From: Nitrospirota bacterium
Lineage (GTDB): Bacteria > Nitrospirota > Thermodesulfovibrionia > UBA6902
Direction of reading: 5' to 3'
Assembly (NCBI GenBank): GCA_016214845.1
Contig: JACRMS010000006.1
Span: forward strand, 1 to 40,308
DNA: 40,308 nt
This document shows, one piece after another, positions 33,912 to 35,303 of this stretch (its first letter is position 1; every line of letters starts with the position of its first letter). Below the pieces are notes generated by a model that ran no database searches, was not told the origin of the DNA, and saw nothing but the letters and a program-made list of their open reading frames with translations. The translations under genes and the position numbers were made by a program.

Positions 33912-35303
33912 TCAGTCCTTTTCTCCTGTGATAATGAAAACCGGGTTAAGTGCGCTCATGTGCCTTTTATTCCCGGCCATCTTTGACCGTGATACCGATA
34001 CTTCGCTGATGTCCACGCTGAAATGGTTCCTCTCCATACATTGCATCGCCTCATTTAACGTCTCAATCGTAGTTGCATTTATAACAACAATAAGTGACGA
34101 GCGGCGAGCGGTGAGAATAGAGTCTATTATTTTTTCAAGCTTCCCGCTGCTGCCGCCGATAAAAACCCTGTCCGGGGCAGGTAACCCTTTCAAGGCTTCA
34201 GGCGCATCTCCTTTCACGATCTCGATGTTCATGGTATTGAATTTATTTTTGTTAGCGGTGATATTGTTTATCTGCTCTTCGTCTTTTTCGACGGCAAAAA
34301 CCTTTAACGCCGGTATAAGCCTCGCGGCCTCCATGGATACAGCACCTGAACCAGCGCCGATGTCCCAGAACACGCCCTTTTGCGGGAACCTCAATTTGTG
34401 TAATGCAACAGACCTCACCTCGTTTTTTGTAATGAGCCCCCTTGAATGCAGGATCTCGTCTTCCCTTAAACCAAAGATGGGGGTTGGGGATTGGGGATCA
34501 GGGATTAGAGGTACGGAATTCGGGGTTCTTTGCTCTATGCCCTTTGCTCTATGCTCTTTGCTGTTTATTATCACAACCACATTCGGATGTTCAAAAGAAC
34601 GCACTGCGATCTCTTCAGGGGTCCCTTCGACAATCTTCTCGACAGGGTAGCCAAGTCTTTCGCAGACGTACATTTTAAGAGCAGAGGGCAGAGGGCAGAG
34701 GGCGGAAGATCCAGAAATTGCTTTTGCAATTTCTGAAGGGTTATTCTCCCGGTCGGTCAGGATGGCAAGTTTGTTGTGCGTTGCAAGCAGATGGGGAATG
34801 TCGGCAATTTCATATTCAAGCTTCCTTCGTTTTGTCGGGTCAGGTCCCCCGTGTACGCTCATTAAAAAAGCGCCGCTCCATGTTTCTTTTATCCTTGAGA
34901 ATGCGACCTGAATGCTTGAAAGGTCGGGGTAAACGTCAACTGCATCTCTATTAAATACCTCTGTAATTAACCTTCCGATGCCAAAGAGCATCGGGTCGCC
35001 TGAAGCGAGAAGAGAAATGTTCTTTGATTCCAAACCCGGAGTTCGGCATTCGGGGGCTTTCCGTGATCTTTTTTCTGTCTTCTGTCTTCTGTCTTCTGTC
35101 TTCTGTGCTTTGAGATATTCCATGGTTTCATGAATGCTTCCCAAAACCTTGACCCGGCCCTTTACGCTTTCGTATTCACTATACTCTTTGAAGACCTCAA
35201 GGAGCCGGTTGTTTGCGAGGATGACATCCGATCTTAAAATCGCTTCCGTTGCCTTTTTATCAAGCGGTTTATAACCGATTCCTATGAGATGAATTTTAGT
35301 CAT
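33912..35303 (-). CDS. cbiET: CbiE - CbiT (CobL) fusion, precorrin-6Y methyltransferase
   Basis: A 463-residue bifunctional enzyme methylating C5 and C15 with decarboxylation. The N-terminal CbiE domain starts IHLIGIGYKPLDKKA and has SLLASGDPMLFGIGR. The CbiT domain (from about 285) has VFWDIGAGSGAVSMEAA, the SAM-binding motif, and DRVFIGGSSGKLEKII. Three heptamer regions are read through: residues about 66-77, 199-208 and 248-275 (the last joins the domains). It is first in the operon. A TATAAT lies about 7 bases upstream of the ATG (complement of 35314-35319) with no ribosome binding site, so translation may be leaderless. No cobalamin riboswitch was seen. Confidence 0.93.
   Translation of the reverse strand: MTKIHLIGIGYKPLDKKATEAILRSDVILANNRLLEVFKEYSEYESVKGRVKVLGSIHETMEYLKAQKTEDRRQKTEKRSRKAPECRTPGLESKNISLLASGDPMLFGIGRLITEVFNRDAVDVYPDLSSIQVAFSRIKETWSGAFLMSVHGGPDPTKRRKLEYEIADIPHLLATHNKLAILTDRENNPSEIAKAISGSSALCPLPSALKMYVCERLGYPVEKIVEGTPEEIAVRSFEHPNVVVIINSKEHRAKGIEQRTPNSVPLIPDPQSPTPIFGLREDEILHSRGLITKNEVRSVALHKLRFPQKGVFWDIGAGSGAVSMEAARLIPALKVFAVEKDEEQINNITANKNKFNTMNIEIVKGDAPEALKGLPAPDRVFIGGSSGKLEKIIDSILTARRSSLIVVINATTIETLNEAMQCMERNHFSVDISEVSVSRSKMAGNKRHMSALNPVFIITGEKD
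34479..34562. repeat. Two adjacent heptamer arrays in cbiET
   Basis: 34479-34527: GGGGGTT, GGGGATT, GGGGATC, AGGGATT, AGAGGTA, CGGAATT, CGGGGTT. 34528-34562: CTTTGCT, CTATGCC, CTTTGCT, CTATGCT, CTTTGCT. The phase is unbroken where the motif changes, and the block encodes the CbiE-CbiT linker. Confidence 0.82.
34681..34735. repeat. Heptamer array and perfect hairpin in the CbiE domain
   Basis: GCAGAGG three times plus GCGGAAG at 34681-34708, followed by CAGAAATTGC, TTTT, GCAATTTCTG (34712-34735), a perfect 10-bp inverted repeat within coding sequence. Confidence 0.8.
35037..35107. repeat. Heptamer arrays near the cbiET start
   Basis: CGGAGTT, CGGCATT, CGGGGGC at 35037-35057, then TTCTGTC four times plus TTCTGTG at 35073-35107, encoding KTEDRRQKTEKRS on the minus strand. 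Confidence 0.8.

Follow-up and report, generated by a model that had tools for sequence, protein, structure and literature searches.

Motif switch within a heptamer array of a CbiET-type gene as the possible centre of a dispersed two-armed short-tandem-repeat element

A gene for a CbiET-type precorrin methyltransferase (33912..35303, minus strand), which belongs to a cobalamin (vitamin B12) gene cluster, contains at positions 34479-34562 a stretch of 84 bases that is composed of 12 heptamers, 7 G-rich ones followed by 5 of the CTTTGCT type. One motif passes directly into the other, which raises the question of how such a switch arises and whether the period of 7 bases reveals the process responsible for it. 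The window analyzed, a stretch of 40,308 nucleotides, is the entire contig C6 of the 3.45-Mb genome of a groundwater bacterium. Its named relatives as judged by CbiET are Nitrospirota, several of them labelled Thermodesulfovibrionales and mostly of groundwater origin.

The units of the stretch read GGGGGTT GGGGATT GGGGATC AGGGATT AGAGGTA CGGAATT CGGGGTT CTTTGCT CTATGCC CTTTGCT CTATGCT CTTTGCT. They yield 53 matches of 77 at lag 7, compared to 27 of 76 at lag 8, the second-best lag in the range of 4 to 11, and the best 84-bp stretch across 20 Markov-shuffled windows reached 37 lag-7 matches. The purine-rich arm (34479..34527, plus strand) contains 7 GGGGATT-type heptamers, the last three of them degenerate, so that the motif decays toward the switch with units 5 to 7 agreeing with GGGGATT at 3, 5, and 5 of 7 positions, respectively. 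The pyrimidine-rich arm (34528..34562, plus strand) follows with zero spacer and consists of five units CTTTGCT/CTATGCY. Together, the 84 bases are exactly the 28 codons 248 to 275, which are part of the linker that connects the two methylase domains (Pfam TP_methylase at 3-232, methyltransferase from 310).

A genome-wide excess of the period of 7 over other lengths, on which the original prediction depended, is present. In 826 kb of the genome (the window plus 786 kb), 144 lag-7 arrays were counted, compared to 16 at lag 6, 48 at lag 8, and 38 at lag 9, and one Markov-shuffled copy used as control contained 4 lag-7 arrays. The unrelated heptamers named in that prediction occur as period-7 arrays in the window. 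Among 20 genomes of the family, represented by one stretch each, the number of lag-7 arrays ranged from none to 21; in one 50-kb stretch of Escherichia coli K-12, lag-7 and lag-8 arrays were both absent. Of 245 genomes of the phylum, 38 contained CTTCTGN in three tandem copies, with a patchy distribution. According to a simple codon-score script used instead of a gene finder, with relatives scored by the codon table of the own genome, the array density was 0.84 per kb outside of genes and 0.11 per kb inside, yet 124 of the 276 arrays were located inside.

Clustering sorted 204 heptamer arrays into 29 clusters, while shuffled units gave a mean of 63. Arrays within one change of the motif set of the own genome made up 39 of 50 in the sister genome (15.9 after shuffling) and 62 of 107 among the family genomes sampled (28.7 after shuffling). 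A limited set of recurring motifs favors a shared source over local seeds, and motifs that recur across loci and related genomes are not predicted by slippage of one local seed. A fixed period combined with many motifs is borne out across the genome. The period itself is not strictly 7, since period-8 arrays occupy orthologous sites.

The unbroken 7-base phase across the switch had been taken as a sign of a length-measuring mechanism. It is not informative in itself, since a mutual phase is undefined for two unrelated period-7 repeats in direct contact. No phase locking across the element centres was found in pairs of the same motif family (n = 8 + 2 + 4, small numbers), and in the 8 GGGRTT pairs the spacing across the centre fell on five different residues modulo 7. 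The same is seen in comparison with the sister genome (G026), which is about 86 to 93% identical across syntenic blocks. For the arrays in or overlapping cobalamin genes, 10 of 10 length differences were multiples of 3 (−6, 0, +60, −33, −33, +30, 0, +45, −3, and +45), eight of them non-zero and none of these a multiple of 7. Intergenic arrays differed by +70, −4, and +130 bp, multiples of 3 in 0 of 3 cases; all these totals take in other indels between the anchors, e.g., dispersed repeats. This indicates that the reading frame and not a ruler of 7 bases has been conserved in genes. Beside an AATTGCA array at 16250-16340, the window contains an insertion compared to the sister, with a total length difference of 70 bp. 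At about 23541-23710, a MITE-like dispersed repeat is present, which is about 155 bp long and has inverted ends; the sister contains dozens of copies, none of them at the orthologous site.

The order of the arms follows a rule. The evaluation of neighboring arrays with a gap of less than 60 bp covered 1.26 Mb from the own genome, 439 kb from the sister genome, and 20 stretches from 20 family genomes. Read along one strand, the own genome had 51 purine-to-pyrimidine (RY) pairs, no pyrimidine-to-purine (YR) pair, and 5 pairs of the same polarity; the sister had 16 RY, 2 YR, and 4 RR pairs; and the family genomes had 29 RY, 0 YR, and 4 YY pairs. Pooled, these are 96 RY compared to 2 YR among the opposed pairs, and of the two exceptions, both in the sister, one involves a near-neutral AGCT motif and the other joins two separate elements. 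Strand bias of replication or transcription cannot produce this polarity, since an R-to-Y order is identical when read on either strand. Unmatched arms inside genes display the same polarity. In the open-licence literature, no R-to-Y polarity common to unrelated motifs, including unmatched genic arms, was found. The bacterial heptamer excess is an old observation, explained in one line only, and the polarity rule, which extends over unrelated motifs, positions inside and outside of genes, and 20 relatives, is a countable feature that any mechanism must reproduce.

The best explanation, to which about an even chance is assigned, is that the 84-base stretch belongs to a large number of dispersed two-armed short-tandem-repeat elements with modular arms. 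Such an element would be a purine-rich array of 3 to 5 heptamers (7 in the case of the stretch considered here) and, after a spacer of 0 to 60 bp, a pyrimidine-rich array on the same strand. The motif switch at 34479-34562 may then be the centre of an element with arms that touch, no spacer being left. At this site, the sister has retained the CTTTGCT arm in a four-unit form, the GGGGATT arm is without a counterpart, and the sister sequence is 45 bp shorter overall. The opposite contrast exists at C32:127479, where the arms touch in the sister and the own genome has 45 extra bases between them.

Other sites in the window, all given on the plus strand, show that motifs and numbers of arms change at orthologous positions. 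Within the same CbiET-type gene, the GCAGAGG array at 34681..34703 and the TTCTGTC array at 35073..35106, the latter preceded by degenerate CGGARTT heptamers at about 35036-35060, are both represented by octamer arrays in the sister, the first of the AAAAGTGC type. A two-armed element with the unmatched arms GGGGATT and TGAATTT (29697..29769) lacks both arms in the sister, which is 60 bp shorter, and the two-armed stretch with unmatched AGGGATT and CTGACTG (29250..29318) has identical motifs there. Of two intergenic hairpin elements, that at 20068..20134 with a GGGATTR arm, a T-rich loop, and a complementary arm corresponds to an AGCTGTC/GCTGATC-type pair, and that at 23707..23772, AAGTAACGAGTGACGGG ... 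CCCGTCACCCGTTACTCGTTACTT, to AATGCGT-type arms. The GGGGTTG array in a cbiG-type gene (30552..30596) corresponds to GACGGGT followed by ACTTCTG arms, the TCTGTGC array at 30239..30281 to octamer arms, the sister being 33 bp longer in both cases, and the TCTGTGT array at 28897..28937 to an array of the octamer CTTCTGCA. The motif of the ACTTCTG array at 31577..31613 is unchanged, as are motif and length of the TCTGTGT array at 33646..33703.

Read by eye, 13 sites of the window could be compared: 4 with the same motif, 7 with a different motif, 1 lost, and the site of the motif switch with one arm kept. A scripted count over all mapped loci gave 25 same, 9 other array, and 5 none for 39 arms in one direction of the comparison, and 24 same, 12 other array, and 1 none for 37 arms in the reverse direction; "other array" includes cases with a kept partner arm, so that motif replacement accounts for at most 9 of 39 and 12 of 37 arms, respectively. 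Several replacements are by period-8 arrays. At C16 about 60305-60420, inverted octamer arms enclose a spacer of 78 bp that has the opposite orientation in the sister, with a local score of 68 for the inverted and 8 for the direct orientation. This indicates that inverted octamer arms recombine and act at this site as boundaries of an invertible segment.

Ordinary replication slippage is a possible alternative explanation, albeit one with a clearly lower probability than the two-armed element. The polymerase would slip most readily over about 7 to 8 nt, its contact length (Mrazek 2007, as cited in PMC4679880 and PMC4692102), tolerated arrays would persist, and the junctions would be chance contacts. 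The dominance of period 7 with periods 8 and 9 behind agrees with this, and so does the clustering of the unit numbers per array at 3 to 5; slippage is also the explanation given for the heptanucleotide excess in many genomes in the parts available of these two publications (PMC4679880, PMC4692102). Plain slippage does not account for the polarity rule, however, and leaves the RY order in 96 of 98 opposed pairs as well as the recurring motif set unexplained. Moreover, where the sister is without arms (29697 and 34479), no array of the respective motif remains.

The complementarity of the arms bears on a second alternative, in which the arms are selected nucleic acid sites, that is, putative paired binding sites, for instance of a bacterial chromatin protein, or RNA hairpins. 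Many pairs are complementary and fold as hairpins, and some elements fold far better than shuffled sequences, as does that at 23690-23775 (z −6.5). Outside of genes, as called by the codon-score script, the arms were matched in 27 of 31 pairs of the own genome, compared to 7 of 20 pairs in genes (p 2e-4); the sister had the same direction with 8 of 10 elsewhere and 2 of 6 in genes, which is not significant. The family sample did not reproduce this difference (12 of 20 in genes and 4 of 9 elsewhere), so a lower complementarity of genic arms was rejected as a general rule, the pooled p of 0.0015 being driven by the own genome. The opposite-strand heptamer and octamer pairs of Geobacter metallireducens, putative IHF/HU sites in the portion of the report available (PMC2700814), would also speak for such sites. 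On the other hand, motifs change between the sisters while an array stays at the site, unmatched genic arms share the same polarity, genic arrays at hypervariable linkers look tolerated, and the element at the motif switch folds no better than shuffled sequences on either strand (z −0.6 for the mRNA strand and −0.9 for the other). No Rfam match was obtained in the window at the gathering score. Sites kept by selection are an unlikely explanation of the arms.

If two-armed elements are the correct explanation, the motif of each arm would be drawn from a limited set that the genome shares with its relatives, and the arms would be lost or replaced independently of each other. Arms may be copied or moved from other genomic arms or may arrive by allelic replacement from relatives, and would then be trimmed or extended through repeat slippage and recombination. 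Those in genes would survive only in unstructured linkers and with the reading frame intact. When whole arms were compared, 81 imperfect arms matched another locus better in their true unit order and 48 worse, a weak signal with a mean gain of one score unit over the shuffled order. No enzyme moving the arms was identified. Homologous arms more than 60 bp apart gave 14 RY and 10 YR pairs, which is no clear RY excess, and longer, autonomous elements carrying the same arms were accordingly rejected. Copying or moving by itself leaves the polarity unexplained.

The polarity would be produced directly by an extension of 3' ends, a very unlikely alternative in which purine-rich tails are added in steps of 7 to 8 nt at the ends of a break or an insertion and are subsequently joined. 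Such a process would be expected to give the polarity on both strands as well as unmatched arms, arms without a spacer, and the lack of a seed shared with the flanking sequence. A template-free variant, adding purine tails to 3' ends that face a break or an insertion, would have the polarity across motifs as its signature and is given a slightly smaller chance still. We know of no enzyme that adds such purine-rich repeat tails to 3' ends. The absence of a reverse transcriptase also speaks against 3'-end extension, as does the lack of a decay gradient from older units outside to newer units inside, the inner units being worse in 75 and the outer units in 55 cases; this difference is not significant, and directional arm growth was rejected. 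Ku is present in 9 of 37 family genomes, and arrays are frequent in the Ku-less genomes G027, G028, G031, and G022, so Ku-dependent end joining was also dismissed, with one stretch per genome counted. The own genome carries two adjacent Ku genes at C37:103362-104792, and the 9 family genomes contain the same pair.

Mobilization as REP/REPIN-type elements by Y1 transposases is similarly improbable: the genome contains two RAYT-like genes (C30:130919-131251, L110, and C17:46149-46478, L111) and dispersed hairpins, but the motifs are many and unrelated, and no array of period 6 to 9 is located within the 5.5 kb and 4.0 kb surrounding these genes, so the suggested linkage to a Y1 transposase did not hold. 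A retro-type process, the other suggested source, and arrays made by reverse transcriptases of the retron, DGR, or telomerase-like type lack the required gene, as PF00078 was not found in the own genome, which is 96% complete, in a search that was positive in 3 of 14 named genomes used as control.

Paired heptamer arrays, a heptamer excess, and motif shifts are already in print for Geobacter, Nostoc, and Xanthomonas. A close likeness is to the paired heptanucleotide or octanucleotide repeats of Geobacter metallireducens, termed "global regulator binding sites" and proposed to be bound by IHF/HU, which in the sections available (PMC2700814) comprise 3 to 5 tandem units of 7 to 9 nt, mostly as opposite-strand pairs with variable separation, located both within and between genes. 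The 51 RY, 0 YR, and 5 same-polarity pairs of the own genome display this arrangement of opposite strands with short, variable spacing. Of the consensuses given, MTYCTGA resembles the ACTTCTG family and TCTCCGTS the octamers found here, and the pyrimidine-rich consensuses on both strands in the legends of the same source (PMC2700814) would imply the same purine-to-pyrimidine order. The Geobacter sites are described there as few fixed classes per genome, unlike the many motif families, unmatched genic arms, and motif exchange at orthologous sites observed here.

In the P6b stem of the Nostoc trnL intron, heptamer arrays likewise form a stem, and Class I and Class II replace each other at the same site in related strains; in contrast to the arrays described here, the excerpts available (PMC4476775) concern one locus, an RNA intron outside of protein-coding genes. 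The quadruplex-forming heptamers GGGNATC and GGGGA(C/T)T of Xanthomonas and Nostoc (PMC4692102) share the G-rich type, the preference for four units, and the variation between close relatives. They differ as a single, mostly non-coding motif, with paired polarity not described in the parts available of that publication (PMC4692102). Similarly, the TAACTGA direct repeats of marine Beggiatoaceae are short dispersed heptamer arrays, some within open reading frames, but are presented in the accessible text (PMC4679880) as one motif with related heptamers rare and a location mostly upstream of start codons.

With regard to MITEs, inverted arms are present here, with motifs differing from element to element, and no clean empty site with target duplication was found among 31 + 26 compared loci. 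Cyanobacterial STRR sequences, attributed to Mazel 1990, are reportedly tandem heptamers of several families; likened by description and not by sequence, they resemble the arrays found here in the 7-nt unit in excess and in a mainly intergenic location by density. Rickettsia palindromic elements (RPE) insert in frame into protein genes. The in-frame length differences at 10 of 10 genic sites have the same character, a comparison of this property and not of the RPE sequences themselves.

Two-armed elements supply new peptide segments to the linkers of housekeeping enzymes. The CbiE-CbiT linker contains an array in 15 of 25 homologues, 8 of period 7 and 7 of period 8, with many motifs, and arrays of period 6 or 9 were absent from these 25, which remained of 35 loci after exclusion of partial genes and duplicate species. 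Two CbiET loci (L048 and L065) contain longer dispersed repeats of the TCATTGCGAGC... type in frame in the same loop of CbiE that is occupied by heptamer arrays in other species.
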